A stretch of 64,000 nucleotides of DNA from Desulfosporosinus acididurans. Lineage in GTDB: Bacteria > Bacillota > Desulfitobacteriia > Desulfitobacteriales > Desulfitobacteriaceae. Both the position numbers and the translations under genes were made by a program. The stretch covers positions 124,001 to 188,000 of the forward strand of contig NZ_LDZY01000001.1 of assembly GCF_001029285.1 (NCBI RefSeq). The letters run 5' to 3'. Under the pieces are notes generated by a model. The model had not been told where the DNA came from. It worked only from the letters and a program-made list of their open reading frames with translations, and searched no databases. This document shows, in pieces, positions 3,709 to 53,024 of the stretch. Each line of letters opens with the position of its first letter. Within the stretch, counting starts at the first letter, position 1.

Positions 3709-3787
3709 GGCGCTTTCGGCGAAAGCGTCCACAGGACACTTTCGTCACCGAGACCCCGATGTTCAGCTTTAGCTGAACGAGTTCACT
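3709..3787 (-). repeat. Dispersed intergenic element, copy F (divergent)
   Basis: In minus orientation it begins AGTGAACTCG, and the TGA in this string is the stop codon of the MBL gene. It then has the GAACATCGGGG segment shared with the copies at 18.9, 44.9 and 53.0 kb, and a stem CGAAAG-c-GTCC / GGAC-a-CTTTCG (3720-3744). The other copies have CAATAATGTCC / GGACATTATTG at this point, so the outer stem differs but stays paired. A second hairpin, CGCTTTC/GAAAGCG (3711-3728), competes with it. It also separates two convergent genes and may act as their terminator. Confidence 0.7.
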
Positions 3788-4436
3788 TCAACGTTCTTTG
3801 AAGGTTATCCAGCCAATGACTCGACGCAGGAGTCGCCGGTCCATGTCCAGGGAGAATCCAGCGCAAGGGACGACTTGTTATTGTTCGGGCCGATTCTATT
3901 AATTTTTCTTTATCCCATGTAAAAAACTTCGGCGCCAAACGAAGTTCTCCTCCTTGAAAAAGGTCCCCGACAATTGCAACACCGTTCCGATAGAGAACGA
4001 TATGTCCCGGAGTATGTCCAGGAGTTGGTATTATTTCCCATTCTCCAAATAGCTTTTGGTCCTTGAGGGAGCAAATGTTTTCCGGAATAGTTAATTTTCC
4101 GTAAATAGGACGAGTTAACAAGGGTAACCAACGTTTTATTCCATGACGTTTCAATTGTCCGTTAATAAAAGGTATCTCAAGGGAATGGGCATACAGCGGA
4201 CATTTCATAGTTTTTTGCAGTATGACTGCACTTCCGACGTGATCGATATCATAATGCGTGAGAATTATTCCTTCCGCAGCCGTTGGATCAAGCCCAATAG
4301 AATTTAAATACTTAAGTATGCGATCTTCTTGTCCCGGCATACCTGAATCAACTAAAAAAGTATGTAAACCTGTCACGACGTAAACGTGGGCACCCTTAAC
4401 TCCATCGATTAAATGAATGCCATCAGTTACTAACAC
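3783..4436 (-). CDS. MBL-fold metallohydrolase (glyoxalase II-like)
   Basis: The metallo-beta-lactamase zinc motif appears as THYDIDHVG, followed by TPGHTPGHIVLYRNGVAIVGD and a C-terminal LPGHGPA, giving the metal ligands of a glyoxalase II-type hydrolase. GTG 4436 is the likely start because GGAGG lies ten bases upstream; an in-frame ATG at 4457 would place that ribosome site inside the gene. The length is then about 217 residues. Substrate unknown. The last codons run into the repeat element, whose AGTGAAC supplies the stop codon. Confidence 0.85.
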   Translation of the reverse strand: MLVTDGIHLIDGVKGAHVYVVTGLHTFLVDSGMPGQEDRILKYLNSIGLDPTAAEGIILTHYDIDHVGSAVILQKTMKCPLYAHSLEIPFINGQLKRHGIKRWLPLLTRPIYGKLTIPENICSLKDQKLFGEWEIIPTPGHTPGHIVLYRNGVAIVGDLFQGGELRLAPKFFTWDKEKLIESARTITSRPLRWILPGHGPATPASSHWLDNLQRTLK

Positions 4437-4671
4437 TATGATTTTTCCTCCATCCAATGGTCAACGTGCTGTTTGTTCATTATAGGAACACAGCATGTTT
4501 TTTAATTTCTCCAGATTAGTTTGTTCGACGAAAAACTAAAAATACCTTTTTAGAAATAGAAGCAGGCAAAGATTCAAAGATGAAGAATAATAAACCTTTA
4601 TGAACGTATTTTTAAAGTCATTCGGCAGATACTAATAGTGTTCAAACGTTTTAAAAAGGAGGAGGATCCTT

Positions 4672-4965
4672 TTGCCGGAACGAATTCTGAAATTTGGAGG
4701 CGTTAAAATCCGCAATCTCGTTCCCCCTGTAAAAATAAATCGTTTTGTCAATCAATTACCATTAGAAAAACGAGACTCCCTCTTCGAAATTGCCACTGAA
4801 TTACAAAACGCGGGAATGATTGACGTATTAAATTCTCGTTCACAAAGTACGATGGATAAGGATACTATCGATGACCAAATGACCAATACAGGTAATTTTG
4901 CTCACGACTTATCAAGTTTTAAGCGACACATTAACGAGAAAGACTCTTTAAATCTTCCCAAGTGA
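4672..4965 (+). CDS. Hypothetical protein, 97 aa
   Basis: Starts at TTG 4672 behind a strong GGAGGAGG. The N-terminal half is basic (PERILKFGGVKIRNLVPPVK); the middle RFVNQLPLEKRDSLFEIATE is helical; the last 40 residues are polar and probably flexible. There is no signal peptide or membrane segment. I do not recognise the family. The stop codon is the TGA of the AGTGAACTCG string that starts the repeat copy at 4961, so the natural C-terminus may have been reshaped by insertion. Confidence 0.6.
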   Translation: MPERILKFGGVKIRNLVPPVKINRFVNQLPLEKRDSLFEIATELQNAGMIDVLNSRSQSTMDKDTIDDQMTNTGNFAHDLSSFKRHINEKDSLNLPK

Positions 4966-5030
4966 ACTCGTTCGGCTAATGCAAGTTCACAAAGGACCCA
5001 CCCCCACTTCTAAAAGTGGGGGTCTTATTA
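4961..5030 (+). repeat. Dispersed intergenic element, copy A (short form)
   Basis: Begins AGTGAACTCG, overlapping the stop codon of the 97-aa gene. It goes directly to the other end of the element, AAAGGACCCA followed by the CCCCCACTT/AAGTGGGGG hairpin; the central stem present in longer copies is missing. It therefore looks like an internally deleted copy in the same orientation as the gene. Confidence 0.7.
5000..5023 (+). terminator. Terminator hairpin within repeat copy A
   Basis: ACCCCCACTT / AAGTGGGGGT with a four-base loop is a perfect 10-bp stem. It is followed by CTTATTAATTATTTTT. It can end transcription of the 97-aa gene. Confidence 0.75.
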
Positions 5031-5057
5031 ATTATTTTTGGGGAAAAAATTGCATTT

Positions 5058-5094
5058 AAAATTCCGCACAAACTTAATGTTGTGCGGAATTTTT
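5058..5094. terminator. Bidirectional terminator between the 97-aa gene and deoR
   Basis: ATTCCGCACAA / TTGTGCGGAAT is a perfect stem flanked by A-runs on one side and T-runs on the other, so it can stop transcription from both convergent neighbours. Confidence 0.8.
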
Positions 5095-5112
5095 AGTGTT
5101 GGATTTTGCAAC

Positions 5113-5862
5113 TTAGGCAAGAAGAACCTTAACTCCCATAGAATTCAATTTATCCCGAATTTCTTCCTCTAGACCGGAATCAGTTACTAACGTTTGGATA
5201 CTGTCCCAGCGCGCAAAAGTATGAAAATAGATTTGGCCAATCTTGGCACTATGCGCAACAAGGATGACCTCTTTAGCAACTTTAAGCATTTCTTGTTTAA
5301 CTTCCGATTCAAGCATATTAGCAGTTGATAAACCACGTTCAATAGCAACTCCGGTTGCTCCTAAAAATAGTTTATCGGCATTAAAGCCTTTCAGAACAGA
5401 TCGTGTAAGTGGTCCAACAAGAGCAAAGTTTTTACCCTGAACTTCTCCTCCAGTTAGTAAAACGGTAATCTCATTTCGGTTTCCCAAAACACCTGCAATG
5501 GGTATTGAATTGGTAATCACGGTACATTTAGTCGTTAGAGCTTGAGCTACACCAAGCGTTGTAGTTCCTGCATCCAAGATAACCGAATCGCCTTCGGTGA
5601 TAAGAGTTGCAGCTAAATGTCCGATCCTAGACTTCTCACGCTCTGCTTCTCCCATACTCATCATCAAAATTTCCGTTGGTAGAACTGGAGGATAGATCGC
5701 TCGTCCATGTTCGCGCTGAATCAGACCTAGAGCGGCTAAGTTCTTCAAGTCTCGTCGAATTGTCATTTCCGAAACATTAAACCGTTTGGCCAATTCAGTG
5801 ACAGTTAAATTGCCATGCTCTTGGAGTAACCATTGAATTTCATCCTGCCTTTCAGAACTCAC
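5113..5862 (-). CDS. DeoR-family transcriptional regulator
   Basis: Residues 1-57 form a DeoR winged helix (LTVTELAKRFNVSEMTIRRDL, then LGLIQREHGRA). Residues 75-235 form the DeoR sugar-phosphate sensor fold (DSVILDAGTTTLGVAQAL, then TVLLTGGEVQ and DKLFLGATG). Such proteins repress sugar genes until a phosphorylated sugar binds. The GTG start has GGAGGG eight bases upstream. It is the last gene of gap-pyk-deoR, so it probably controls its own glycolytic operon; it is not the CggR type normally found with gap in Bacillus. The effector is unknown. Confidence 0.85.
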   Translation of the reverse strand: MSSERQDEIQWLLQEHGNLTVTELAKRFNVSEMTIRRDLKNLAALGLIQREHGRAIYPPVLPTEILMMSMGEAEREKSRIGHLAATLITEGDSVILDAGTTTLGVAQALTTKCTVITNSIPIAGVLGNRNEITVLLTGGEVQGKNFALVGPLTRSVLKGFNADKLFLGATGVAIERGLSTANMLESEVKQEMLKVAKEVILVAHSAKIGQIYFHTFARWDSIQTLVTDSGLEEEIRDKLNSMGVKVLLA

Positions 5863-5891
5863 GATCTCCCTCCTTTCTGTTGTTAACGTTT

Positions 5892-7625
5892 TTAAAGAAT
5901 GCTCATCGAACCTTCATATAAGATACCTGTAAGTGCATCAACGGTTACCAACTGCCCATTGGTTACTTTTGTAAAGGCCTCCCTTGCACCAACAATTGCG
6001 GGTATTCCATACTGCAAAGCAGCAATTGCCGCATGAGAAGTCAATCCTCCTTCTCCTACTACAAGTGCACCTGCACGAGCAATAAGAGGTACAAAGCTGG
6101 CATCAGTACTTTCGGCAATTAAAACGTCTCCCAGATTGAAATTATCCTGTTCAGGATTCTTGATTTTTTGCGCTAAACCGGAGAACGACTTACGTCCAAT
6201 ACCAGTTCCTTTGGAGAGAATATTTCCAATAATTTGGACTTTAATCATATTGGTCGAACCAACTTTACCGATTGGTACGCCCGCAGTAATAACAACTACA
6301 TCTCCCGAAGAAATATAATTCATGGTTAAGGCACTATTCACAGCTACAGACAGCATTTCGTCAGTACCCGAACTTTCAGGAACGACAATAGGTTGAACTC
6401 CCCATTGGAGTGACAGCTTTCTTGCGGTAGTAGCAAGTGGTGCAGCCGCAACTATCAAAGCTTTAGGACGATATTTAGAAATCATTTTTGCCGTCAAACC
6501 AGAATGGGTTGGAGTTAGAATAGCTGCCGCATCAAGATCCTTGGCAATATTATATGTTGCATAACTAATCGCTTCAGCAACATTTAACTGCGGATGGCGA
6601 TTAGCTTGACTTTCCAAAAATGTCCTTTCTGTTCGGCGTGCAATCTTATCCATCATTTGAACAGCTTGGATTGGAAACTGACCTGCAGCTGTTTCACCCG
6701 ATAACATAATGGCATCAGTTCCGTCCCAAATAGCATTGGCAACATCACTTGCCTCTGCACGCGTTGGCCGAGGCTGCCGAATCATTGAGTCCAGCATTTG
6801 GGTTGCCACTATTACCGGTTTCCCCATGAAGTTACATTTAGAGATCATTTCTTTTTGATTAATAGGAACTTCCTCGACGGGGATTTCAACCCCTAAGTCT
6901 CCCCTGGCTACCATTAATCCATCTGCGACTTCTAGGATTGAATCCAAGTTAGCAATGCCTTCTTGGCTTTCAATTTTGGCAATAATATGAACTTCAGCAC
7001 CCATATCTTCGACAATTCTGCGTACATCTAAAATATCCACAGCCTTTTGAGTGAACGATGCCGCGATGAAATCAATTCCTTGCGAAACACCAAAGCGAAT
7101 GTCATCAATATCTTTTTCTGTTACTGCCGGCAAATCGACATGAATACCAGGGACATTAACGCCTTTTTGCGATTTTAGAATCCCACCGTTACGGACGACG
7201 GTCCGAATTATTCCTTGTTCTACAGTGCTTACTTCTAGATCGAGTTGACCGTCATCAATTAATACATGGGTCCCAGGATTAACACTTTGCCACAACGTTT
7301 TGTGAGTAATACCTACCCGTTCTTGATTCCCAAGGCTGAGATCCGTATCGAGGGTAAAGCTCATACCATTTTCTAATCTAATTCCCTCATTAGGAACCAT
7401 TCCGGTACGAATTTCCGGGCCTTTTGTGTCGAGAAGAATTCCTAAATGCTTGCCGATTTTTGCTGCTTCTTCTTTTAAAACCGCAATTCGTCGTCCATGT
7501 TCCTCATGGGTTCCATGGGAGAAATTTAGTCGTGCAACATCCATTCCCGCAGCTAGAAGAGCTTGAACATTTTCTCTAGATTCACTTGCCGGGCCTATCG
7601 TGCAGACAATTTTAGTCCTTCTCAT
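5892..7625 (-). CDS. pyk: Pyruvate kinase with C-terminal PEP-utilising domain
   Basis: Converts PEP and ADP to pyruvate and ATP. The start MRRTKIVCTIGPAS, the ARLNFSHG loop, IIAKIESQEG with the catalytic Lys, MVARGDLGVEIP and TRAEASDVANAIWDGTDAIMLSGETA are all present. After about residue 470 there is an extra mobile PEP-utiliser-like domain, ending GGLTSHAAIAALQYGIPAIVG, as in Bacillus and clostridial enzymes. ATG 7625 has AGGAGG upstream and is preferred over a longer frame. It lies 16 bp after gap. The total of about 577 residues is normal for the two-part form. Confidence 0.96.
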   Translation of the reverse strand: MRRTKIVCTIGPASESRENVQALLAAGMDVARLNFSHGTHEEHGRRIAVLKEEAAKIGKHLGILLDTKGPEIRTGMVPNEGIRLENGMSFTLDTDLSLGNQERVGITHKTLWQSVNPGTHVLIDDGQLDLEVSTVEQGIIRTVVRNGGILKSQKGVNVPGIHVDLPAVTEKDIDDIRFGVSQGIDFIAASFTQKAVDILDVRRIVEDMGAEVHIIAKIESQEGIANLDSILEVADGLMVARGDLGVEIPVEEVPINQKEMISKCNFMGKPVIVATQMLDSMIRQPRPTRAEASDVANAIWDGTDAIMLSGETAAGQFPIQAVQMMDKIARRTERTFLESQANRHPQLNVAEAISYATYNIAKDLDAAAILTPTHSGLTAKMISKYRPKALIVAAAPLATTARKLSLQWGVQPIVVPESSGTDEMLSVAVNSALTMNYISSGDVVVITAGVPIGKVGSTNMIKVQIIGNILSKGTGIGRKSFSGLAQKIKNPEQDNFNLGDVLIAESTDASFVPLIARAGALVVGEGGLTSHAAIAALQYGIPAIVGAREAFTKVTNGQLVTVDALTGILYEGSMSIL

Positions 7626-7641
7626 TATTAATTCCTCCTGA

Positions 7642-8655
7642 TTACAAACCTTTCGCAACAATTAATTTTACCAAATCGACAACACGATTAGAATAGCCCC
7701 ACTCATTGTCGTACCAAGATAACACTTTGACCATTCGATCCCCCATCATCATTGTCGATAAGCCATCAACAATCGAGCTTGCCGGGTTTCCATTAAAATC
7801 ACGGGAGACGAGAGGAAGATCTGTGTAGTCAAGTATACCCTTCAACTCATTATTTGCGGCTTGGCGCAAAGCTGCATTGACATCTTCTTTCGTTGTCGGC
7901 CTGCTTAAATTAGCGACAAAATCTACTAAAGAAACATTTGGGGTTGGTACTCGAACAGCAAGTCCATTCATTTTACCTTCCAATTCAGGAAGAACAAGGG
8001 TTACCGCTTTAGCTGCCCCTGTTGTTGTCGGAATCATGGATTGATAGGCTGCTCTCGATCTACGCCAATCGGAATGTTCTAAATCTAAAATTCTTTGATC
8101 ATTTGTTACTGAATGAGTAGTTGTCATCATTCCTTGCTCGATTCCAAAAGCGTTGAGTAATACTTTGGCTACCGGGGCAAGACAGTTAGTGGTGCATGAT
8201 GCATTAGAGATAATATGATGATTTTTAGGATCGTATTTCTCCTCATTGACACCTAAAACAATTGTTATGTCTTCATTTTTTGCCGGCGCAGAGATGACGA
8301 CTTTTTTAGCCCCTGCAGTAAGGTGTTGAGCTGCGGCATCACGTTTTGTAAAACGTCCTGTTGATTCAATGACAATATCAACACCGAGCTTCGCCCATGG
8401 CAAATCTAAAGGATTTCTTTCAGCTAAAATTTCAATGCGTTTTCCATCAATAATCATAGTATTTCCATCAAGGTCAACTGAATTAGGAATAATCCCGTGG
8501 TTAGAGTCATACTTGAATAAATGGGCTAATAAAGCCGGGCTTCCCAAGTCATTGATAGCGACTACCTCAAAAGGCAGTGATTGTTGTTTGAGTGCAGCGC
8601 GAAGTGTTAATCTGCCAATCCGACCAAACCCATTAATAGCTACTCTTAAACTCAT
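7642..8655 (-). CDS. gap: Glyceraldehyde-3-phosphate dehydrogenase, type I
   Basis: Oxidises glyceraldehyde-3-phosphate to 1,3-bisphosphoglycerate with NAD. It has the NAD-binding [14 protein letters not shown] start, the catalytic cysteine in [15 protein letters not shown], and the sugar-phosphate-binding [15 protein letters not shown] end; 337 residues is the normal length. AGGAGG precedes ATG. It is first in gap-pyk-deoR. No pgk, tpi or eno follows, so only the two flanking steps of lower glycolysis are grouped with the regulator. Confidence 0.96.
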
Positions 8656-8791
8656 TTGTTTTTACCTCCTCTTAATGCTCCAATGTTCATAGTTAGTAGA
8701 GTACTACTTTAACATATTAACATTAATTCTGTGCGAACAAACAAATTCCTGCTTAAATATATGTTTATTTAAACATTTTTTTATTTGTATA

Positions 8792-8807
8792 TTTAGGGTT
8801 CCCTAAA
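8792..8807. promoter_or_regulatory. Candidate operator upstream of gap-pyk-deoR
   Basis: TTTAGGG TT CCCTAAA is an inverted repeat with perfect 7-bp arms and a two-base centre, in otherwise AT-rich DNA, about 140 bp before the gap start. Binding by the operon's own DeoR protein is inference. Confidence 0.35.
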
Positions 8808-8864
8808 CACAATAAAAACTTGCAAACTATAGTTTACAAGTTTTTCAATCAAATAAGGAAATAA

Positions 8865-8904
8865 AAACGGCTTGTAACAATGGTAAGTTGTTAACAAGCC
8901 GTTT
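8865..8904 (-). terminator. Terminator of the hbd-crt-acd-thl operon
   Basis: AAACGGCTTGT / ACAAGCCGTTT with an inner AACAA/TTGTT extension forms a long stem. On the minus strand TTTTTATTT follows, as expected for an intrinsic terminator about 60 bp after the thl stop. Confidence 0.8.
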
Positions 8905-8963
8905 CATGTAATTTGATTAAGTTGTGGTAACCTCTGGCGTTAAATTCCTAATATAATTTACTC

Positions 8964-10142
8964 CTAACGTTCTACAATTAAAGCAATCCCTTGACCGCCG
9001 CCGATACAAAGGGTCGCTAAACCGCGTTTTGAATTTCTGCGTTTCATCTCATGAAGTAAGGTCACTAAAATTCTTGTCCCCGAAGCTCCCACAGGATGCC
9101 CCAAGGCTATGGCTCCACCATTGACATTGGTTTTATCCATATTGAGGTTTAATTCTTTTGCTACCTCTAAAGTTTGAGATGCAAAAGCCTCATTGGCCTC
9201 AACAAGGTCAATATCCTCTATCTTCAAGCCGCACTTTTCTAAGGCTTTCCGAGTCGCAGGAATCGGACCTGTGCCCATTATGCGCGGGTCTACCCCGGCC
9301 GAACCCCAAGATTTAATGGTTGCTATGGGTGTTAATCCCAGTTCTGAGGCCTTCTCCTTGGACATAACAACAACTGCTGCTGCACCATCATTGATGCCTG
9401 ATGCGTTTGCAGCGGTTACAGTCCCTTCCTTTTTAAAGGCACCGCGCAATTTAGCTACAGACTCATAAGTTGCTCCGAAGCGAGGGAATTCATCCTGGGA
9501 AAATACAACCGGGTCTCCCTTACGCTGAGGAATACTTACAGGTACTATCTCTTCATTAAACTTCCCGGCTTTGATTGCCTCTTCCGCTCGGTTTTGACTC
9601 GATACAGCATAACGATCCTGTTCTTCACGTGAAATACCAAACTGCTCAGCAATATTTTCTGCCGTAATTCCCATGTGAATATTATGAAATGCATCAGTTA
9701 AACCATCATTAATCATAAGATCTACGACATTTGCATTTCCCATTCGATAACCTGTTCGTGCTTTTGGAAGAACATAGGGGGCCAGTGACATGCTCTCCAT
9801 TCCGCCAGCAATAACTATATCTGCGTCTCCGGCAATAATTGCTTGGGCTGCACAAACGACAGATTTTATACCCGAACCACAAACTTTATTAAGAGTCCAT
9901 GAAGGAACTTCTTGGGGAATTCCGGCATTCATTGCGGCTTGGCGAGCAGGATTTTGTCCTAATCCGCCTTGCAGAACGTTGCCTAAAATAACTTCGTCAA
10001 CTTGATCAGGGGTGATTCCAGCCCTCTTGATGGCCTCTTTAATAACGATTGCCCCAAGTTCGGCGGCAGGAATTTGTCCTAAAGCCCCGCTAAAAGAACC
10101 CACTGGTGTACGGACTGCGCTAACGATAACAACGTCTTTCAT
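8964..10142 (-). CDS. thl: Acetyl-CoA C-acetyltransferase (thiolase)
   Basis: Condenses two acetyl-CoA to acetoacetyl-CoA, or cleaves it in beta-oxidation. It has the acyl-carrying cysteine in [11 protein letters not shown] (near residue 88), GGMESMS, the NEAFA motif, [10 protein letters not shown] with the catalytic His, and CIGGGQG with the second cysteine near 378. The 392 residues match biosynthetic thiolases. ATG is preceded by AGGAGATGACTAA. It is the last gene of hbd-crt-acd-thl. Direction of flux is not decided by the sequence. Confidence 0.95.
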
Positions 10143-10188
10143 TTAGTCATCTCCTACAACAATATTCGAATATTGAAGGACTAGTGTA

Positions 10189-11331
10189 TTATCCTTTAAG
10201 GATATGGCTGCTGATAACTACACGTTGAATCTCATTCGTTCCTTCATAAATTTCCGTAATTTTGGCATCGCGCATCATACGCTCAGCAGGATACTCGCGT
10301 GTATAACCATATCCACCGTGGAGTTGAACACCCATGGTAGTTACAGCCATTGCAGTTTCAGAAGCAAACATTTTAGCCATTGCTGATAACTTGGAAACCG
10401 ATACATGGGCATCAGCCATTTTGCATGCTTTGTAAACGAGCAAGCGAGCAGCTTCAATTTGGGTTGCCATATCAGCAAGTTTAAATTGGGTGTTTTGGAA
10501 TTCTGAAATAGGTTTGCCGAATTGTACACGTTCTTTAACATACTTCATGCATTGTTCATAAGCTCCTTGAGCAATTCCTAAAGCTTGGGAAGCAATTCCG
10601 ATTCGTCCGAAATCAAGGGTTTGCATCGCAATTTTAAATCCTTGGCCTTCTTCACCCAAGAGATTTTCAGCAGGTACATGAACATCTTCAAACACTAGCT
10701 CATAGGTTGCGGAAGAACGGATTCCCATCTTCTTCTCTTTTTTGCCAAAAGAGAAACCCGGCATTCCCTTTTCAAGAATGAAAGCAGCAATTCCGCGATT
10801 TCCTTTGCTCTTATCCATTTGAGCAGTGACAACATAAGTATCGGCATAATAGCCATTGGTAATAAAGATCTTGCTGCCATTTATGATGTACTCGTCACCT
10901 TGACGAACTGCTGTCGTTCTTGTTCCCGAAGCATCGGAACCAGCCATGGGTTCAGTTAAACCAAAGGCACCAAGTTTTTCACCTGTAGCCAATGGTACAA
11001 GATATTTTTTCTTTTGGGCTTCTGTACCAAATTTATAAATGGGGTTGGCACAAAGACTGGAGTGGGCAGAAATCGTAACACCTACTGAGGCATCAACCCG
11101 GGAAAGTTCCTCAACAGCAATAGCATAGGAAATATAGTCAGCACCTACACCGCCGTACTCTTCAGGGAAAGTGATACCGGCCAGGCCAAGCTCCCCTGCT
11201 TTTTTCCAAATTTCTACGGAAAATTCTTCAGTCTCATCACGATGTTCAGCCCCCGGAGCACATTCTTTCTCCGCAAAGTCACGAACCATTTTACGCATCA
11301 TAACGTGGTCTTCAGTTAAATCGAAATTCAT
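10189..11331 (-). CDS. acd: Acyl-CoA dehydrogenase (short-chain/butyryl-CoA type)
   Basis: FAD enzyme that oxidises acyl-CoA or, in reverse, reduces enoyl-CoA. The start [23 protein letters not shown], the signatures [16 protein letters not shown] and [23 protein letters not shown], and the catalytic Glu in [13 protein letters not shown] are those of short-chain dehydrogenases. ATG 11331 follows GGAGG; a longer frame lacks such support. It needs an electron-transferring flavoprotein, but no etfAB lies in this operon. FixABCX (31-34.6 kb) is the only ETF in the window and a possible partner. Confidence 0.93.
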
Positions 11332-11359
11332 AATATTCAACCTCCAAATTTTTTGATTT

Positions 11360-18830: not shown

Positions 18831-18928
18831 ACCTCTTCGCTCCGTTAATAAAATCATGGAAGGTTCACTTTATCCAATCGTAAGGTTCCCACTTCTTGTG
18901 GGAGTGGTTCACATTTCACGCGATAAGG

Positions 18929-19069
18929 AGTGAACTCGCTTACGCTAAAGCTGAACATCGGGGCTTCAGATACAATAATGTCCAGTGGACATTATTGCCG
19001 AGCCGCCTTCACCATAGGAAGGGACCCACCCCCACTATAGAAGTAGGGGGCATAAAAACTGGATAAAAA
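18929..19069 (+). repeat. Dispersed intergenic element, copy B (full form)
   Basis: In plus orientation: AGTGAACTCGCTTACGC, GAACATCGGGGCTTCAG, the stem CAATAATGTCC-AGT-GGACATTATTG (18973-18997), GCCGAGCCGCC, then AGGGACCCACC with the CCCCCACT/AGTAGGGGG hairpin, and TAAAAACTGGATAAA at the end. Upstream, 18868-18928 has TTATCCAATCGTAAG and a CCCAC/GTGGG hairpin that may belong to a longer version of the element. It is the only copy not placed downstream of a same-strand gene. Confidence 0.75.
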
Positions 19070-20060: not shown

Positions 20061-20146
20061 CAGTTAACGAAGGACCCACTCCCACTTATAGTCCTGACCC
20101 CTATATCCATCTTACAAGAAGTGAGGGCCTTAAAAACTAGATAAAA
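20061..20146 (+). repeat. Dispersed intergenic element, copy E (right part, divergent)
   Basis: Shares AGTTAACGAAGGACCCA, a degenerate CCCACTT...AAGTGAGGG hairpin with an enlarged loop, and the TTAAAAACTAGATAAA end with the copies at 19.0 and 44.8 kb. The left and central segments are missing. Confidence 0.6.
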
Positions 20147-42245: not shown

Positions 42246-42300
42246 TCTTCAGTTTTAGCCGAACGAGTTACTCGAAATTTAGAAATTCGAACGAGTTCTG
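42246..42300 (-). repeat. Possible remnant of the dispersed element (copy G)
   Basis: In minus orientation ACTCGTTCGGCTAAAACTG resembles the start of copy A (ACTCGTTCGGCTAATGC). An ACTCGTTCG string is repeated nearby, giving a hairpin CGAATTTCT/AGAAATTCG-like arms. It lies directly after the ANTAR gene, in gene orientation, as for other copies. The match is short. Confidence 0.35.
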
Positions 42301-44644: not shown

Positions 44645-44955
44645 CTCGGGTTTATTATACCTCCCAAATTACTCTTAAGCAAAATTTGGGAAATGCAGAA
44701 AGAGGACTATATTCACGCATATAGCCCCCAACTTTTCTTGCTGAGTTGTAAGTTGTTAGTTCCAGATTGTTATAGATTTATCTAGTTTTTAACCCCCCAC
44801 TTCTGTAAGTGGGGGTAGGTCCTTCGTTAACTTCAGGCAGGGTAGAGTCCTACTTCGCCGCTAAGTATTCCTATTGGGAAAGGCGGCTCGGCAATAATGT
44901 CCACCGGACATTATTGTATCTGAAGCTCCGATGTTCAGCTTTAGCGTAAGCGAGT
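44645..44955. other. Intergenic region filled by repeat copy C
   Basis: About 310 bp between the PHP gene start and the 192-aa gene stop. The right 180 bp is the dispersed element; the rest (44645-44775) should carry the PHP promoter. No further gene. Confidence 0.6.
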
Positions 44956-44960
44956 TCACT
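44776..44960 (-). repeat. Dispersed intergenic element, copy C (full form)
   Basis: In minus orientation: AGTGAACTCGCTTACGC (its TGA is the stop codon of the 192-aa gene), GAACATCGGAGCTTCAG, stem CAATAATGTCC-GGT-GGACATTATTG (44892-44916), GCCGAGCCGCC, TTTCCCAATAGGAATACTTAG, AGTTAACGAAGGACC, the CCCCCACTT/AAGTGGGGG hairpin and TTAAAAACTAGATAAA. With 185 bp it is the most complete copy. Confidence 0.8.
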
Positions 44961-45534
44961 GCTTGTTCCCTGCAGCTGGAGCTTTAACGGTTGAATCGAC
45001 AATGAAACGAAAACTGGCTTCCGTAGCTTGATCTACCCCGCCGGCTGGATTGGGTTTAATTCTTACAATCATCAGATGCTGCCCGGAAGTCGCGCTTTTT
45101 CCAAGAGCATCACCTAAACATTTTATCTGGCGAAAAGCAATTCGAGCTTTAGCACCTGGTTCCAAAGAAGGCAATACACCGGGAGAAATTACTTTTTTAG
45201 TTTCATCGCCTGCCAGAGAGACTTGCAATTCTACGGGTATGTTTGTCATTTTTTTAGCAGTCGTATTCTGAACTGTTACAATTAGATCAAAAGTTTTACT
45301 AGCAATTACTTGCGCACCTTTTAAAGTTACATTGCCGTAATTTAGGTCTTTCACAACTGAGGCCGGTTCCACATTTACCCCCAACATTTGAATTTCAGGC
45401 GTGACGGTTACGCTAGATCCGCTCGTTTGTTTCGTCTGCCAGAATGAATACCCGGCAAGTCCAATTAAACAAATTAATAAGCCACTGGTTAGCATTACGA
45501 GATATTTACGATTAAGAGCTATAATTTTAGTCAA
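44956..45534 (-). CDS. Membrane-anchored protein with Ig/CARDB-like domain, 192 aa
   Basis: N-terminal helix near residues 10-32 (LVMLTSGLLICLIGLAGYSFW), then an extracellular beta-rich domain: LIVTVQNTTAKKMTNIPVELQVSL and LPSLEPGAKARIAFRQIKC, a CARDB/Ig-like pattern. TTG 45534 has AGGAGG upstream and is preferred to a longer frame. The stop TGA comes from the repeat element, so the last residues (AAGNKQ) may be altered from an ancestral form. Function unknown. Confidence 0.65.
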   Translation of the reverse strand: MTKIIALNRKYLVMLTSGLLICLIGLAGYSFWQTKQTSGSSVTVTPEIQMLGVNVEPASVVKDLNYGNVTLKGAQVIASKTFDLIVTVQNTTAKKMTNIPVELQVSLAGDETKKVISPGVLPSLEPGAKARIAFRQIKCLGDALGKSATSGQHLMIVRIKPNPAGGVDQATEASFRFIVDSTVKAPAAGNKQ

Positions 45535-45573
45535 AGCTGACAACCTCCTATAATTCAGATTTATTCTATAAAA

Positions 45574-45609
45574 AAAGTATGCATGTCCTTTTAAAGACAT
45601 GCATACTTT
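45574..45609 (-). terminator. Terminator between dnaI-like and the 192-aa gene
   Basis: AAAGTATGCATGTC / GACATGCATACTTT, perfect 14-bp stem with a short loop. On the minus strand TTTATAG follows. It ends the dnaD-dnaI operon. Confidence 0.7.
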
Positions 45610-45635
45610 GAAAAAATTTTTATGAATATGCACGG

Positions 45636-46496: not shown

Positions 46497-46529
46497 ACAA
46501 TTAATACCCTCCCAACTGGCCCTATTCTC

Positions 46530-47297
46530 TTAAAGATAAAAGTTGTCATATTTGTTCGAAGAAGTTTTAGGTCCCTGTTTTTTGGGCCTTGAAACCTTTT
46601 TCTCTTGCCGAGCTTGAAAATATGCATCCTCAGCTTCTACTTCCATCTTAGTTCGTAATCCTTTTTTCTCCCATTCTCGAAGTATCGAATCTAAATACCT
46701 AAAGTTTCGGATTCCTGCGCTAACTCCTCGTCTTAATGCCTCGATGATAAGTTCTTCAGAAAAATGAGTGGCTAGCCAACGATCTAAGTTCTCGCATTCA
46801 ATACTTGTTAGAGGTCTTCCAAGTTCTTGTTCAAAAACACGAACTAAATTTTCCATTGGCGATTTTACAGGAGTCGGGGCAGACGTTGATTGAGTTTGCC
46901 GTAAAGTTCGTTCTTCTTCTAATTGTTGAGAACGTTCAATAGCCCACAATTCCGCAAGCTCATCAATTAAAGCAACAAAACAATAACTATTTAGCCACTT
47001 TTGTTCTGCAGAATTCCAGTATCGTTCGATTGCCAGTAAATTTCGCTCCACCAAATGGCCGACACTTTCTTCGATTTCCGTTAAAGTAGCACTCATACGA
47101 GCAGCTAAGGTAGCTAAGGAAGGATAAGGATTGGTCTCAGCTTCACAGAGAATCTGAATTAAGACCATTACTTCACGATCTGTTATACCCATCGTTTTAT
47201 AGTGAGTTAATAGATATTTAGGAACTGAAACGACTCCAGAAAAGAAAAGAGCTTGTGTAAAGCTCCCATAAACACTTGTCTTATTGCTCATGTGCAA
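46530..47297 (-). CDS. DnaD-domain replication initiation protein
   Basis: About 255 residues. The N-terminal winged-helix part is SVPKYLLTHYKTMGITDREVMVLIQILCEA; the C-terminal DnaD domain reads VRVFEQELGRPLTSIECENLDRWL, then EALRRGVSAGIRNFRYLDSILREWEKKGL with the YIxxIL-type helix. It acts with DnaI in helicase loading, as DnaD or DnaB of Bacillus. TTG 47297 follows GGGAG by five bases; ATG 47291 is an alternative. First gene of the pair. Confidence 0.88.
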   Translation of the reverse strand: MHMSNKTSVYGSFTQALFFSGVVSVPKYLLTHYKTMGITDREVMVLIQILCEAETNPYPSLATLAARMSATLTEIEESVGHLVERNLLAIERYWNSAEQKWLNSYCFVALIDELAELWAIERSQQLEEERTLRQTQSTSAPTPVKSPMENLVRVFEQELGRPLTSIECENLDRWLATHFSEELIIEALRRGVSAGIRNFRYLDSILREWEKKGLRTKMEVEAEDAYFQARQEKKVSRPKKQGPKTSSNKYDNFYL

Positions 47298-47528
47298 AAT
47301 CACTCCCTGTTTACATCCATGAAAAACCATACAAAACCATTATAAATATTCCTAGATTATTCTCGCTTTTAAACAATATTCCTGCTCAAAAGCCAAAGAC
47401 TTGACTCCATAATAATCGAATCAAAAGATATCTAAGAGTCATTAGTAATAAAGTATTTCCATATTTTAGGAGGATTTTTTCTTCCTATGGCGTATATAGT
47501 TTCAAAAGAAGCTAAGGAGGCCAACTAT

Positions 47529-48119
47529 ATGAAGTTCCGCCAAGAACTTATTCAGATCGTCGAAAAATCAGGTGCTCATCCTGCCTGGGGAATCAAACAT
47601 TGTTTTAGGGTATACCATTTGGCAAAGGAACTATCCTCCCATCTAATGCTTGATGATGAGGTGTTATTTGCTGCAGCAATGCTTCATGATACGGGGAAAT
47701 ACCCTATTTATGCTATTAAAAATGTTGACCATGCATTACGCTCAAAAGGAGTGGCTGCTAACCTTTTACAACAAATGATGTTCTCTCCCGATAAGATACC
47801 TTTGATTTTAGACGCTGTTGAAAATCACATGTATTATTCCGAACCGGGTCGCAGTGACGAGGCTGTATATTTACGCGAGTCTGACATACTGGATAACCTG
47901 GGAAATATCGGTTTAATGAGATTATTTAGCTGCGTAGGGCAAGACGAATTAATTCAAACACCTGAGCAAGCTGTTGAACGGGCTCGACTTTTCGCTGACG
48001 CTTTGCCTGACAAAGTATCCACCAAATCCGGGAAACGATTGGCTATTAAGCGACGTGAAGAAACCCTCCGCTTCCTTGCCGGAATCAAACGCCAAACGGC
48101 AGAGTTTGCCTGGATCTAA
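47529..48119 (+). CDS. HD-domain phosphohydrolase
   Basis: About 196 residues. The HD metal site is built from GIKHCFRVYHLAKEL, LFAAAMLHDTGKY and LILDAVENHMYY. Such proteins hydrolyse nucleotides or phosphate esters; substrate not known. Two starts are possible: ATG 47487 behind a distant AGGAGG, or ATG 47529 behind AAGGAGG at eight bases; I prefer the second. Divergent from the dnaD-like gene. Confidence 0.82.
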   Translation: MKFRQELIQIVEKSGAHPAWGIKHCFRVYHLAKELSSHLMLDDEVLFAAAMLHDTGKYPIYAIKNVDHALRSKGVAANLLQQMMFSPDKIPLILDAVENHMYYSEPGRSDEAVYLRESDILDNLGNIGLMRLFSCVGQDELIQTPEQAVERARLFADALPDKVSTKSGKRLAIKRREETLRFLAGIKRQTAEFAWI

Positions 48120-48155
48120 TAACAATTACCTTGGATAGCAGCGCATTAATTCATT

Positions 48156-49889
48156 CTATTTGCGCCGATTGACCTTCTCTTGATCTTCGAGCCATCGGGT
48201 CAAGCCGTCAAGCAGTTCAATAACCCGGTCATAATTGCGAGAGCGATTACCTTCATCAAGTATCTTTTTAAGACGATGTCGAAGTCTAATGTAAGCTCTG
48301 TTAACTTGGGCTCGTGAATGATGAGATTCAAGACGACTTGTCCGCTTCGTTGGCAAGGATACAGACTTTGGTCTTGATTCTTTAACAGGGGGCTCTGCAG
48401 AAAGAGCTTGATTCGCCTCTCCAGTCCTCGCTGCAGTATCCTCCAATATCCATGGCTTGTCAGGAGCATGCCGAACAAACTGATCAGATATATATTCAAA
48501 TACTTCTCCTAATTGAGGGATAACTGGTGTCGTTCCGAATATATCCTTAATCTTTTCAGAAAACGTAGTTTGAGCCTCTAACTCTCCGTGAATAAGAACA
48601 ATCTGCTCTGCCTTTTTCCCTAAAAGCGACAGCCACTGAAGAAGTTCGGCTTGATCAGCGTGAGCAGATAAGCCATCCATATGCTTTATACGGGCTTTGA
48701 CTGCTACTTTTTCGCCGTGAATAGTTACTGTTTCAGCGCCTTCAGAAAGAAGTCTGCCTAGAGTTCCTTGGGCCTGGTAGCCAACAAACAACACAGTAGC
48801 ATTACTGCGCCATAAATTATGCTTTAAATGATGTTTAATCCTACCGGCATCAGCCATTCCACTAGCAGCAATTATAATAGCGCCGCCTTCTATTTCATTA
48901 AGAGCCATGGATTCTTCAGCAGTTTGGCTGAAATGTACATTTGCCAGTGTAAGGGGACTGCTTCCCTGTTTAATGAGCTCACGAGTTTCTAAATCAAAGT
49001 GTTCTGTATTTTCCTGAAATATCTTAGTTGCAGCAATTGCTAAGGGGCTGTCTATATACACAGGCAGAATTGGTATTCGATGTTCGTCCTGTAGTTTACG
49101 AAGATAATAAAGAAGATCTTGCGTACGCTCTATAGCAAAAGCCGGAATAATTAAATTTCCTCCAGCTTCGTAGGCAGAGCGAATCGTTTCGGCAAGTTGT
49201 TCCGCACGATCCGTCATCTTGCCAAGTTCGTCATGAAGACGGTCCCCATAGGTCGTTTCCATAATCACGATTTCTGCATCACTTAAAATACTTGGGTCTT
49301 CAAGATAGGGTTGATTAACATTACCAATATCGCCAGAGAAAACTATGGATTTAATAAAGTCTGCTTCTTTGACATGAAGTACGACATGTGCAGAACCTAA
49401 AATATGTCCCGCATCATATAGTTCAAAAGATATGGTTGGAACCAAATTAACGAGTTCATGATAGGATATAGGCTGAAAATATGGCAGGGTGTCCAAAGCA
49501 TCCTGAACGGTATAAATCGGATCTAACGGTTTAAGTCCGGCCCTTTCTCGTTTTCTGTTTTTTCGTTCGATCTCCATTTCTTGAATGTGACCGCTGTCAG
49601 GCAACATGATAGAACATAACTTAATCGTCTCAGGTGTTGCCCATATTTTGCCTTTAAATCCATGTTTCACCAGTTTTGGGAGCATACCTGAATGATCTGT
49701 ATGAGCATGGGTCAAGATAACAGCATCCAGACTGGAAGGATTATAGGGAAAGTCTCCGTAATTCAACTCTTTAAGTGCCTTTGATCCCTGAAACATCCCA
49801 CAATCAATTAAAATTCGCGCTTTATCGGATTCCACGAGATACGATGATCCAGTTACAACTTGAGCTGCACCAAAAAAACTAATCTTCAT
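48156..49889 (-). CDS. Beta-CASP metallo-beta-lactamase ribonuclease-like protein
   Basis: 577 residues. MBL zinc motif [16 protein letters not shown], later ligands in [11 protein letters not shown] and [11 protein letters not shown]. The beta-CASP insert has [27 protein letters not shown] and [21 protein letters not shown], then the RMM-type [17 protein letters not shown]. These are the CPSF73/RNase J-like signatures. A 120-residue basic C-terminal extension ([24 protein letters not shown]) may bind RNA. Probably an endo- or exoribonuclease. ATG behind GGAGG. Confidence 0.9.
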
Positions 49890-50004
49890 GAATAATCCTC
49901 CACTTATAAAAGTCTGAAAACCGAAACGGCCCTTAATTATTCGAGTTTATTTCATCTTACCTTCTAGAGGCTTATTTAGCAATAGATTATTATTTTATTA
50001 CATT

Positions 50005-50640
50005 TTAATCCAGTTGAATCAGTTTAAGTTTAACAGCCTTCAGTGCTGCTTGAGTCCGATCTTCCACTTCCAATTTCCTGTAAATACTGGACAAATGATT
50101 TTTTACTGTCTTTTCACTTATAAACAAAGCAATACCAATTTCTCGATTTGAAGATCCTTGAACCACATAATGTAGGATCTCTAATTCTCGATCACTAAGG
50201 CCACATGTATTCTTAACCGGTGGTTGGGACAGTTGTCCCATTAATTTTCCGGTAACAGCCGGCGACAAAATCGGTTCACCGTTATATACCTTGTATATCG
50301 ACTCTATCAGTGTCTTCGAGTCCACATCTTTGAGTAAATACCCGGCAACACCAATTTGCAGTACTTGAAAAACTTTATCGTCAGAATCATCAACTGTAAG
50401 AACTAAAATACCAATGTTAGGTTTTTCGCGACGAATAACCCGCCCCGCTTCCAGTCCATTAACCCCTGGCATATTTAGATCCATTAACAAAATATCGAAT
50501 TCCAAAGTCCGTGCAATATTTATGGCACCTTGTCCATCTCCAACTTCTGCCACGACTTTAATGCCATCTTCAAATTCCAAAATACGCCGTAACCCCTCTC
50601 GCAAAAGAGGGTGATCATCGGCGATAACTATTTGTATCAT
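50005..50640 (-). CDS. DegU-like response regulator (NarL/LuxR family)
   Basis: Receiver with IVIADDHPLLREGLRRILE, phosphoacceptor in FDILLMDLNMPGVNG, and Lys in YLLKDVDSKTL; LuxR helix-turn-helix ending LSDRELEILHYVVQGSSNREIGIALFISEKTVKNHLSSIYRKL. 211 residues. Its ATG overlaps the kinase stop by four bases, so it works with the DegS-like kinase. Targets unknown. Confidence 0.92.
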   Translation of the reverse strand: MIQIVIADDHPLLREGLRRILEFEDGIKVVAEVGDGQGAINIARTLEFDILLMDLNMPGVNGLEAGRVIRREKPNIGILVLTVDDSDDKVFQVLQIGVAGYLLKDVDSKTLIESIYKVYNGEPILSPAVTGKLMGQLSQPPVKNTCGLSDRELEILHYVVQGSSNREIGIALFISEKTVKNHLSSIYRKLEVEDRTQAALKAVKLKLIQLD

Positions 50641-51779
50641 GGTTTGTCCCCCCCCTCAAGCCTTGATGGAATTGAAAATTCGATAATTGTACCTTCCCCA
50701 CAACAAGATTGAAGCGAAAAACGTCCATAAAACATTTCTACTCGTTCCCTCATACCTATAAGACCGAAATGCTCTCCCGGCGTCTGCATTGTTGAATCAA
50801 TATCAAAGCCTTTTCCATAATCCTGAATTCGAGCTGAAGTCCAATCGTCTTGAAAATTAAGAACAATCTTAACTTTAGATGAATGTGCATGTTTGGCCAC
50901 ATTTGTGATGCCTTCTTGGATTAGTCGAAAAAGTGCCACTTCCATTGTTGGAAAAAGCCTTTTTTCAGATCCTTCAATAAGCAATTCACATTCAATCCCA
51001 TAGGTTTCACTAAAATTATCCAGATATTTGGAAATTGCTGCAATCAGTCCCAAGTCGTCCAGCGCCATAGGACGTAAATCAAAAATAATTCGTCGGATGT
51101 CTTGAAGGTTTGCCCGAACCAAATTTTTCAGATCCATCAGTTCTGCCTTTACACGACTGGGATCATACTCTAACAACTTTCCAGCGATCTCTAAGCGTAA
51201 AACAATATTAGCGAGAGTTTGAGCCGGTCCATCATGTATTTCTCTGGCAACACGTCGTCTTTCGTCTTCCTGCGCCTTTATAACTCGCAACCCCAGCTCT
51301 TGACGTTGTTCATGGCATTGGAAATTAAGTGCTCCCTCAATCCCGCCTTGTAATAGACTAATCGCCATGCTTACCTGGGTCATTAAGTTTTGAGCTCGTT
51401 CAATAGTTGCTCGCATCTGATTTAAGGATCGTTCCAGCTCATCCCTTCGCTTACGTAATTGCGCTTCTCTTGATTGCAGAAGCTGCAATGTTACCTGGGC
51501 ATCTTTTGCTTCTGCATAAGCTTCAATCATTTCCTTTTGAGTATATTTTTGAAAGGATCTATTAACTTCCATTAACATCATGCGTTTTTGTCTATCAACT
51601 TTTTCTTGAGCATCCACCTGAGATATAATCTCAGAAATATCTGACTTTAGCTGAGAGAGCTCGTTTGTTAATCGAAGGGTCTCATTGCGCGATGTTTCCG
51701 CTATAAAAAAAATCTCCTCTTTCCCCGATTCAATCGCGGCCAAAGTATTTTTTATAATTTCCCCCAACTTATCAGACAA
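50637..51779 (-). CDS. DegS-like cytoplasmic histidine kinase
   Basis: 380 residues without membrane segment. Residues 1-170 are the DegS coiled-coil sensor (ESGKEEIFFIAETSRNETLRL, then QKRMMLMEVNRSFQKY). The HisKA_3 phosphoacceptor is in RRRVAREIHDGPAQTLANIVLRLE; the HATPase has ITNVAKHAHSSKVKIVL and EHFGLIGMRERVEMFYG. TTG start behind GAGG. A direct repeat TCTTTTCATCG (51793-51813) lies just upstream. Pairs with the downstream regulator. Confidence 0.9.
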   Translation of the reverse strand: MSDKLGEIIKNTLAAIESGKEEIFFIAETSRNETLRLTNELSQLKSDISEIISQVDAQEKVDRQKRMMLMEVNRSFQKYTQKEMIEAYAEAKDAQVTLQLLQSREAQLRKRRDELERSLNQMRATIERAQNLMTQVSMAISLLQGGIEGALNFQCHEQRQELGLRVIKAQEDERRRVAREIHDGPAQTLANIVLRLEIAGKLLEYDPSRVKAELMDLKNLVRANLQDIRRIIFDLRPMALDDLGLIAAISKYLDNFSETYGIECELLIEGSEKRLFPTMEVALFRLIQEGITNVAKHAHSSKVKIVLNFQDDWTSARIQDYGKGFDIDSTMQTPGEHFGLIGMRERVEMFYGRFSLQSCCGEGTIIEFSIPSRLEGGDKP

Positions 51780-51889
51780 AAAATAAACCTCTTTTCATCG
51801 TCTTTTCATCGTAATGTCGTATTACAAAATAATATATAAATTATTCGACAAAGAAATAGTATTTCCTACTACCAGGTAATAAAAAACCA

Positions 51890-52783
51890 TTATTTCACGA
51901 GTGCTCTTCCTTTCTGACGTAAAATCTGTCGAATCCCTCTTTCCACTCTACGTGGGTATAATAGGTCTTCATAACTGCAAATCAACGCCTTCCATCCTTG
52001 TCGATTTAATAGTTTAGTATTGCAAAAATTAGAGGGATCATCCAAACAAATCAGCAAATCTTCTATTTTGGCGAAGACTGGCTGATTAGCGACTTTCATA
52101 TTCCATTGAATTGATTTGCCAGGATAGATTGTTTTTAACACATACTCTAACCGCTCTTTTGCTTCGTCACTATGAGATTGGCAATCCAGACCCTTTTCAT
52201 CATCATCCTTATGCTGTAAGTTCATAGGAACTTGTGCAAATTCTATGGCTTCTAGAGGCGGCTCCTGATAATCCTTAATTGTTTCATTTACTAAAGATAG
52301 AGCTGGTCCTATGTTTTCTGAGCATTCTTCAAAGTCCACATCCTTGTGAATAGATAATTCCTCTTCGCTTTCAAAATCTTGATTTAAAGATATTATTTTA
52401 TCGAAATTATTATAAGCTTCTTCAATTGGAATCTTGGGCACCACCGGTTCAGAAATCTCCTCGTTCCTTGCAATATTTATCGCCTGAGAGACCCCTTCAG
52501 CTAGCATTCGACTCTTTATATCAGCAAAAGAAGGAAAGTTATTTATAATCTTCTTAGCTGGGAGCTGTTGTTCGATAAGTTGCTCAACACCCTCCTTAAG
52601 GTATTCCGGTGGAAATATTGCGATACTTTGCAGTAATATTGTAAGCTTGACAACAATTCGACATCCTTTGTTAAACTCCGTTTCAGCATCTACGCCTTTT
52701 AAGAGGCAAACTGTGAAAATCTTTTCGGTAATTTGCTCAATCCATTCATGAATTCGAGGATCATTATGGAAATACGTTTCCAA
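51890..52783 (-). CDS. Hypothetical protein, 297 aa
   Basis: I do not recognise it. The first 110 residues are helical (RIHEWIEQITEKIFTVCLLKG, VVKLTILLQSIAIFPPEYLKEGVEQLIEQQL). An acidic, disordered middle (residues 125-200) follows. The basic C-terminal 90 residues (KSIQWNMKVANQPVFAKIEDLLICLDD, then ICSYEDLLYPRRVERGIRQILRQKG) may bind a partner or nucleic acid. No signal peptide. I choose TTG 52783 with GGAGG eight bases before it; a GTG three codons upstream overlaps that site. It lies upstream of degS/degU in the same direction, 110 bp away. Confidence 0.65.
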   Translation of the reverse strand: METYFHNDPRIHEWIEQITEKIFTVCLLKGVDAETEFNKGCRIVVKLTILLQSIAIFPPEYLKEGVEQLIEQQLPAKKIINNFPSFADIKSRMLAEGVSQAINIARNEEISEPVVPKIPIEEAYNNFDKIISLNQDFESEEELSIHKDVDFEECSENIGPALSLVNETIKDYQEPPLEAIEFAQVPMNLQHKDDDEKGLDCQSHSDEAKERLEYVLKTIYPGKSIQWNMKVANQPVFAKIEDLLICLDDPSNFCNTKLLNRQGWKALICSYEDLLYPRRVERGIRQILRQKGRALVK

Positions 52784-52867
52784 AAAATCCACCTCCAGAT
52801 TTAGTTTCTGTAGATAGCTATGCTTGTATCTTCTTAAGTATGAATAGAAATTCGTTTAAGTAAATAA

Positions 52868-52896
52868 AAAACTCCTCAGATTTTCTGAGGAGTTTT
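52868..52896 (-). terminator. Terminator of the CODH/ACS operon
   Basis: AAAACTCCTCAGA / TCTGAGGAGTTTT, perfect 13-bp stem with a three-base loop; on the minus strand TTATTTAC follows. It lies 150 bp after acsE, on the far side of repeat copy D. Confidence 0.85.
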
Positions 52897-52919
52897 ATTT
52901 GAATAGCCAATTGTTTTTT

Positions 52920-53024
52920 CGCTGCTAAGTATTCCTATTGGGAAAGGCGGCTCGGCAATAATGTCCGCTGGACATTATTGGATCTGAAGCCCCGATGTTC
53001 TGCTTTAGCGTAAGCGAGTTCACT
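52920..53024 (-). repeat. Dispersed intergenic element, copy D
   Basis: In minus orientation AGTGAACTCGCTTACGC, GAACATCGGGGCTTCAG, stem CAATAATGTCC-AGC-GGACATTATTG (52956-52980), GCCGAGCCGCC, TTTCCCAATAGGAATACTTAG. It is about 93 percent identical to copy C over 105 bp. The right-hand hairpin is missing. It starts 26 bp after the acsE stop codon. Confidence 0.8.

Follow-up and report, generated by a model that had tools for sequence, protein, structure and literature searches.

A short repeat in a 64-kb stretch of Desulfosporosinus acididurans DNA (hereafter the window) sits on the 3' ends of three genes, and its tip supplies the stop codon of each of them in frame. The repeat is probably a non-autonomous element of ~178 bp of the palindrome-associated transposable element (PATE) type, whose members descend from IS200/IS605 transposons or parasitise them, with a target and a tip that together make landings on stop codons silent. 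PATEs are an already described class, so the statement of an earlier sequence-only reading of the window that no described family was known to it stands only in part; for the rebuilding of stop codons, a literature search with most subscription journals outside it turned up no mobile element described as doing this.

The sequence-only reading had noticed that three genes end, always in gene orientation, on the TGA of a shared motif, and this proved correct: the open reading frames (ORFs) at 3783-4457 (minus strand), 4672-4965 (plus strand) and 44956-45633 (minus strand) all stop at the TGA within the motif. The copies and genes concerned are listed below; FKB is Desulfosporosinus sp. FKB (genome G008) and G009 is another relative.

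3702..3786, minus strand: copy A of the repeat, 3'-truncated; a metallo-beta-lactamase-fold gene takes its stop TGA (3783-3785) from the tip GTGA
3783..4457, minus strand: metallo-beta-lactamase-superfamily gene with its stop from copy A (PF00753, E 2.3e-25)
4672..4965, plus strand: ORF of 97 aa with its stop from copy B, conserved in G009 up to the stop
4962..5027, plus strand: copy B, shortened by an internal deletion, with the TGA at 4963-4965 (from the sequence and the comparison with FKB and G009)
44777..44781, minus strand: target pentamer ATAAA (TTTAT on the plus strand) adjoining copy D
44782..44959, minus strand: copy D, a complete element of 178 bp, GTGAACTCG...CTAG; its TGA at 44956-44958 is the gene stop
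44956..45633, minus strand: gene of 225 aa with its stop from copy D; the ORF ends at the motif TGA

Profile searches gave no family above cut-off for the 97-aa ORF and no family match for the 225-aa gene. The in-frame replacement of the stop by the element tip is certain from comparison with relatives. At copy D the gene ends AAG CAG TGA in D. acididurans and AAG CAA TAG in FKB, which lacks the element at this site; five further relatives carry CAA TAG, CAA TAA or CAG TAA. At copy B the ends are CCC AAG TGA in D. acididurans, CCG AAG TGA in FKB and CCC AAA TAG in G009, which has no element here; the copy has been deleted differently in D. acididurans and FKB, and the TGA is retained in both. 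For copy A, D. acididurans reads TTG AAG TGA, a gene remnant in FKB reads TTA AAA TAA, and the G009 orthologue reads TTA AAT AGT TAA; the ancestral form of this stop is less certain, the G009 end being one codon longer. Outside the window, the Hsp33 gene (locus L011) ends AAG TGA in D. acididurans versus AAA TAA in FKB.

All these cases follow one rule. When the sequence xA^ATAR (the cut being marked by ^) contains a stop TAR, insertion turns it into xA GTGA, so that xAA becomes xAG (synonymous for Lys, Gln and Glu) and TAR becomes TGA, with the position of the stop unchanged. The habit therefore arises because the target A^ATAAA can hold a TAA or TAG stop and the tip reads GTGA. In four of the genes concerned, profile matches extend to the C-terminus or close to it (FakA 545/545, HSP90 614/616, FloA 319/333, Hsp33 280/297), implying that these genes have not been shortened. 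In addition, three long open frames enter the element in a frame other than that of the TGA and stop a few codons inside it.

The insertion site could be defined by comparing D. acididurans contig C1 (430,787 bp) with 400,000 bp of FKB contig C32, which are ~92% identical where aligned and differ by the presence and absence of the repeat. Among 13 filled/empty pairs, six were resolved on both sides (L011, L012, L145, C1:121800, C1:310025 and F32:217324), copy D was resolved on its left side only (the right was aligned by eye), and six were unclean, either because the copy had decayed or because each side held a remnant. At L011 D. acididurans reads GGGGAA^GTGAAC...CTGG^ATAAAAAAACCC and FKB has the empty site GGGGAAATAAAAAAACCC; L012 is alike. 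At C1:121800 D. acididurans reads GTGGA^GTGAAC...^ATCAAAG against the empty FKB site GTGGAATCAAAG. The direction is reversed at L145, filled in FKB with the empty site AAACAATGAGG in D. acididurans, and at F32:217324, also filled in FKB and empty in D. acididurans. In all six pairs the target is neither duplicated nor lost; the sequence-only reading had proposed such a comparison of empty sites in orthologous loci. The left side of the copy B site was likewise resolved from its empty G009 counterpart.

The element is thus GTGAACTCG...CTGG, ~178 bp, inserted at A^ATAAA with the variants ATCAA and ATGAA; the final ATAAA of the right-end motif as first read, and the leading A of the left-end motif AGTGAACTCG, are target DNA and not part of it. 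Of eight empty sites, seven have A before the cut and one has G; the cut is followed by ATAAA in three and by ATCAA in one, and the other four pentamers (ATGAG, AACAA, ATAGG and ATAGA) are one or two bases away from AT(A/C/G)AA. The right flanks of 36 clean right ends are A35 T34 A30/C3/G3 A35 A34, then background. An A precedes the tip in 39 of 39 left ends (the GTGA ends) that were retrieved without requiring it (27 from D. acididurans and 12 from Desulfotruncus arcticus). In a larger, partly selected set it is present in 121 of 124 and missing in 3; here similarity or a motif served to retrieve L002-L060, and for L031-L060 the motif itself contained the A before GTGA.

How often copies sit on stops was counted in 1.61 Mb of unselected DNA (D. 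acididurans contigs C1 and C2, FKB contig C32 and 400 kb of C35). Of its 47 left ends, 38 are intergenic, 5 lie at a gene edge and 4 are at gene stops. The sequence-only reading's idea that the element inserts precisely at gene 3' ends therefore stands insofar as it supplies in-frame stops, but not as an exclusive habit.

One explanation would be coincidence: a common repeat that has a TGA near its tip, and no excess at stops, would have given the window its three stop codons by chance. Several counts agree with it and speak against the stop-related part of our reading. Three of the four stop landings in unselected DNA are in this window, and elsewhere there is 1 in 42, about the expected 2.4-3.5%. 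In the same 1.61 Mb, non-genic A^AT[AGC]AA sites number 42 at stops and 1721 in intergenic DNA (32 and 887 for A^ATAAA alone), and the resulting ~3-fold enrichment is insecure (4/42 vs 32/919, Fisher p 0.067). In the motif-retrieved Desulfosporosinus set without the window, 9 of 115 are at stops, which gives p 0.02 if 3.5% are expected and p 0.25 if 6% are; the gene calls behind this count were crude. Finally, because an A precedes the tip anyway, the form xAG TGA is no independent evidence of replacement.

The reading frames point the other way. We took 124 left ends with a strict motif and at least 400 bp upstream (49 from D. acididurans, 5 from this window, 49 from FKB, 4 from D. arcticus and 17 from others) and counted open frames of at least 100 codons that reach the element. 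There were 20 such frames at 19 copies (L098 in two frames), 15 of them in the TGA frame vs 3 and 2 in the others (binomial p 0.00017). The split is 12:3:2 of 119 without the window's five left ends (p 0.002) and 9:3:1 of 115 when D. arcticus is also removed (p 0.009). In D. arcticus itself 5 of 12 left ends form in-frame gene stops (3 of these genes are also within the 124), whereas among the 40 target sites outside genes in the 56 kb around its copies only 2 do (p 0.0002). Placement relative to stops, which the sequence-only reading had named as decisive for its idea, thus shows no excess in unselected DNA outside the window and a clear one in D. arcticus. The TAA or TAG of relatives at the identical codon, moreover, makes the in-frame replacement itself real, and we consider chance a very unlikely account. 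Landings on stops are a minority; D. arcticus has a clear excess of them, Desulfosporosinus at most a modest one.

The sequence-only reading had also offered a portable 3' untranslated region (UTR) or terminator, retained at gene ends for transcript ending or stability. The strong conserved hairpins and the stop cases across several unrelated genes would suit this, as would the hairpin of copy B, which a terminator scan flagged as terminator-like on both strands. The same scan found no terminator-like site in copy D, however, and at copy E the sole such site is located past the element and is shared by FKB. Similarly, an inverted repeat with a run of Ts persists downstream of copy B in both D. 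acididurans and FKB (seen by eye, unflagged by the scan). Copies at stops decay as they do elsewhere, A being truncated and B deleted, and the bulk of unselected left ends lie off stops. Landing at a gene end is what turns the element into a 3' UTR; its retention as a terminator is not supported, and we regard this explanation as highly improbable.

The remaining copies and related features of the window are as follows.

18874..18912, minus strand: ends-only relative of 39 bp beside copy C, one end's hairpin fused to the other tip and adjoining TTTAT (read directly; absent from the sequence-only reading)
18930..19062, plus strand: copy C, intergenic and internally shortened, with its target ATAAA at 19063-19067 and no counterpart in FKB
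20063..20140, plus strand: partial copy, right end only, target ATAAA at 20141-20145
42247..42272, minus strand: decayed left-end fragment (sequence read)
52912..53023, minus strand: copy E, 3'-truncated, 26 bp past acsE; FKB retains a shorter remnant
53050..53904: acsE (NF005719 match)

A motif search of the window found AGTGAACTCG exactly at 3778-3787 (minus), 4961-4970 (plus), 18929-18938 (plus), 44951-44960 (minus) and 53015-53024 (minus). Five matches are unremarkable alone when up to one mismatch is allowed (mean 2.2 expected, five or more in 8 of 100 shuffles); the copies are recognisable beyond doubt from the sequence behind AGTGAACTCG, not from the motif count, and on reading their sequences A-E are one repeat at differing stages of decay. 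The five copies and the partial ones first reported were thus recovered, the 20.1-kb one as a right-end piece and the 42.2-kb one as a decayed left end, and copy E indeed starts 26 bp after acsE. A right end common to all five was not: the hairpin with TTAAAAACTRGATAAA is present only in C (2 mismatches) and D, while copy B has kept the hairpin and lost the TTAAAAACTRGATAAA tail, and A and E lack their 3' parts.

At ~178 bp or less the element carries no gene, and coding for a transposase is impossible at that size. On the TTTAT strand, the reverse of the one used by the sequence-only reading, it begins after the target as TTTAT^CCAG...; ~13 bases lead to a first hairpin, and the branched interior, a second hairpin and ...GAGTTCAC^T follow. 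A palindrome GTTCAGC/GCTGAAC lies at one end and CCCCCACTT/AAGTGGGGG at the other; the two differ from each other, and there are no terminal inverted repeats. Such subterminal hairpins are found in 52+11 full copies, the GTTCAGC/GCTGAAC one being less regular in the CTTACGC form. In the minimum-energy DNA fold computed for the element, a hairpin is followed by an outer stem CTTCAG/CTGAAG that encloses three hairpins, and then by another hairpin. None of 200 shuffles folds as well as copy D, either as DNA (z -4.7) or as RNA (z -4.2), and an alignment of 27 copies contains five base pairs changed on both sides. Outside hairpin H1 we counted 42 A-C vs 24 G-T wobbles, which at most suggests that the TTTAT strand is the functional one; we do not use this as evidence.

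There are at least two subfamilies with the same left end and different interiors (core hairpin ACAATAATGTCC or CGAAAGTGTCC). In a third form, read from the alignment, the interior is inverted between CTTCGGTG/CACCGAAG arms while the orientation of both ends is kept (L214:1190-1360, L105:301-485, L109:3573-3751 and L167:9592-9772). With strict end patterns, lengths including the flanking pentamer were 180-199 (31 copies), 100-119 (9), 80-99 (2) and 160-179 (1).

A genome-wide pattern search, of the kind that the sequence-only reading had proposed, found at least 178 left ends in D. acididurans (151 of one form and 27 of a second), compared with 1 and 0 matches for the reversed control patterns. 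The repeat is real and mobile, with ~180 whole or partial copies in this genome. When 40 of 218 candidate places were scored, the repeat matched query positions 31 to ~214, i.e. ~180 bp. Across 24 Desulfosporosinus genomes (D. acididurans included, some being incomplete drafts) there are 0 to 206 left ends each, 162 of them in FKB; among 16 genomes from the same order but outside the genus, more than one left end occurs in only two, both of one genus. Overall, 25 of the 40 genomes searched contain a match. Among the matches listed, the named genomes that contain a 24-base core exactly belong mostly to Desulfosporosinus, with Desulfotruncus arcticus and one Bacillota metagenome-assembled genome in addition. 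The core had no exact match in IMG/VR, and the repeat had no match in plasmid and phage collections. In genome G003, which has no left ends, the region after acsE (L161, ~9.5 kb) contains a core hairpin of similar appearance, CGAAAGTGTCC..., which forms part of another repeat-like stretch.

What kind of element is this? PATEs were described in Haloquadratum walsbyi in 2011, with palindromes said to be 'related' to those of IS605 (PMC3119063, consulted in part). The repeat agrees with that description in its lack of target duplication, its palindromes near the ends, its one-sided pentamer target (exact in 4 of 8 empty sites of relatives, with one or two changes in 4) and its size, too short for a transposase. 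Shared with the H. walsbyi elements, as far as the sections consulted describe them, are also the lack of terminal inverted repeats, a target of 4-5 bp at the 5' end with the longer tip there, internally deleted, ends-only forms and strain-specific insertions; nearly all IS200-type genes of H. walsbyi are pseudogenes (PMC3119063). The repeat differs from them in its bacterial host, its unrelated sequence (as far as the published part allows comparison), its branched conserved interior, the near-invariant base 3' of the target and the stop-rebuilding tip. A likeness also exists to the solo-tnpB IS200/IS605 elements of Sulfolobus islandicus, which according to the sections consulted have TTTAT at the left end only and a hairpin-forming right end, as here; those elements carry tnpB and an omega RNA, whereas the repeat is gene-free and has no Rfam match (PMC10640517). 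The two tips of the repeat, TTTAT and TTCAC, are alike, which fits one enzyme cutting both.

Y1 transposase genes (PF01797) co-occur with the repeat: where a genome has two or more left ends they were found in 21 of 23 cases, vs 6 of 17 where it has fewer. This is a hand tally (Fisher 0.0004, uncorrected for kinship or completeness), and both exceptions in the first group, G013 and G022, are incomplete genomes. The complete genome G003, with no left ends, yielded no Y1 gene.

Several observations weigh against the PATE assignment. Among the TnpA/TnpB loci of D. acididurans and relatives, compared with both subfamilies, we found no transposon with these termini, and thus no ends common to the repeat and an IS200/IS605 transposon; nor did strict end patterns locate any element with its ends 230-3500 bp apart in the sequences searched. 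FKB, with its many copies, has only RAYT-like Y1 genes. Placement on the lagging strand, as expected for IS200/IS605, is weak in G009 (39/63) and in D. acididurans (41/72, p 0.14, excluding 12 of 84 exact matches because their contig had no skew sample or because they lay close to the point on C3 where the skew switches), and no clearer when placed by profile (45/83, p 0.26). The near-invariant T after TTTAT is not known to be a requirement of IS200/IS605. The missing partner lowers the case for PATE membership and does not exclude it, because the family description, in the sections consulted, requires no intact resident partner (PMC3119063); and no strand preference is seen either in the part consulted of a study of Halanaerobium IS605 (PMC7290912). 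As a separate observation, copies on G009 contig C3 between 1.75 and 2.5 Mb have a strand preference opposite to that of the remaining replichore, and the GC skew does not.

Candidate partners were examined among 52 Y1 loci searched by profile, where the repeat lies nearby only at L214 and L235 (L343 gave a weak partial match). L214, a TnpA locus in genome G021, was rejected: its copy is just upstream of tnpA, outside the stretch common to the transposon's other copy. At L069/L235 (D. acididurans C6), tnpA and tnpB fragments lie between two separate pieces of the repeat and do not form an autonomous element. A resident two-copy IS605-type element (C15:3371 and C37:6675; L215, L221) was also set aside, its shared sequence starting TTTAA and not TTTAT; it has a hairpin in a place similar to that of the repeat. 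Two other classes could be dismissed. A HEARO or omega RNA finds no Rfam match (no family on the element in the window at gathering threshold, or at five loci at E up to 5) and no compared tnpB with these ends, and a canonical miniature inverted-repeat transposable element moved by a DDE transposase would have terminal inverted repeats and a target duplication, both absent.

The Y1 genes also bring in a second candidate enzyme, the REP-associated tyrosine transposase (RAYT), which could mobilise the repeat as an element like the repetitive extragenic palindromes (REPs). The REP/REPIN elements with RAYT share with the repeat a suspected Y1-type enzyme, hairpins and an extragenic location, in the sections consulted of three studies (PMC2817692, PMC3116915, PMC3733652). 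In FKB, G002, G006, G007 and G011 all Y1 genes above cut-off are RAYT-like, as judged from their length and, for those that were read, their sequence, and the lack of both left ends and Y1 genes in G003 fits RAYT too. Yet the four RAYT loci read, L232 (D. acididurans C20), L218 (FKB C22), L329 and L340, carry flanking repeats of their own of the GGGGACAGGT / GGACCGTCCCCCTGACAC type and lack the ends of this element. REPs are also described, in the part consulted, as 20-40 bp long with GTAG/CGTC tags (PMC3733652), much shorter than the ~178-bp repeat, and mobilisation by a resident RAYT seems to us unlikely.

The bcr1 repeat is ~155 bp long and has TTTAT at both ends, and it raises the possibility of a site-specific-recombination repeat unrelated to IS200/IS605. 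We know of no stop-codon habit of bcr1. Similar size, high copy number, a structured sequence, the TTTAT motif and the restriction mainly to one genus all speak for such a relationship. In the consulted part of a study of the Bacillus cereus group, bcr mobility is linked to the TTTAT motif, and bcr1 is like the repeat in being abundant, TTTAT-associated and group-restricted (PMC6542083). Here, however, TTTAT stands at one end only and no duplication is seen, a distinction that concerns the general description of bcr1. We consider this origin quite unlikely.

We return to a PATE-type element and propose how it may move. The filled and empty sites show insertion 3' of TTTAT (less often TTGAT or TTCAT) without duplication or deletion. 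By analogy with IS200/IS605, an HUH Y1 transposase TnpA acting in trans would cut single-stranded DNA at TTTAT and TTCAC. On the gene strand the target reads A^ATAAA and the inserted tip GTGA, and where a stop lies within ATAA or ATAG the protein is left unchanged, as the relatives show for copies B and D and the Hsp33 gene and, less surely, for copy A. Such harmless landings may persist more often than others. The element turns into a 3' UTR and later decays by deletion with the TGA kept, as seen at copy B.

It is tempting to see the tip GTGA as an adaptation matched to the target A^ATAA, through which stop landings are always in frame and protein-silent; we find this conceivable and, on balance, doubtful. 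If true, gene 3' ends would be a 'safe landing site', heavily used in some hosts such as D. arcticus, which belongs to a different genus. Those mobile elements that avoid harm commonly do it, as far as is known, by using tRNA genes or intergenic DNA. A five-base target able to hold a stop, combined with a tip that restores the stop in frame after a synonymous last codon, is a cheap alternative. The comparisons in any case provide a sequence-level account of a transposon seated on a gene end with the protein untouched. The repeat can make TGA commoner as a stop at the cost of TAA/TAG, and those who annotate these genomes should be aware that a transposon is the source of some of their TGA stops and 3' UTRs.

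A second repeat-like sequence, GGCGAAAGCGGCAG...TTAG.TGC, was seen at other insertions or deletions between D. acididurans and FKB (C1:141139, 297642 and 308015).

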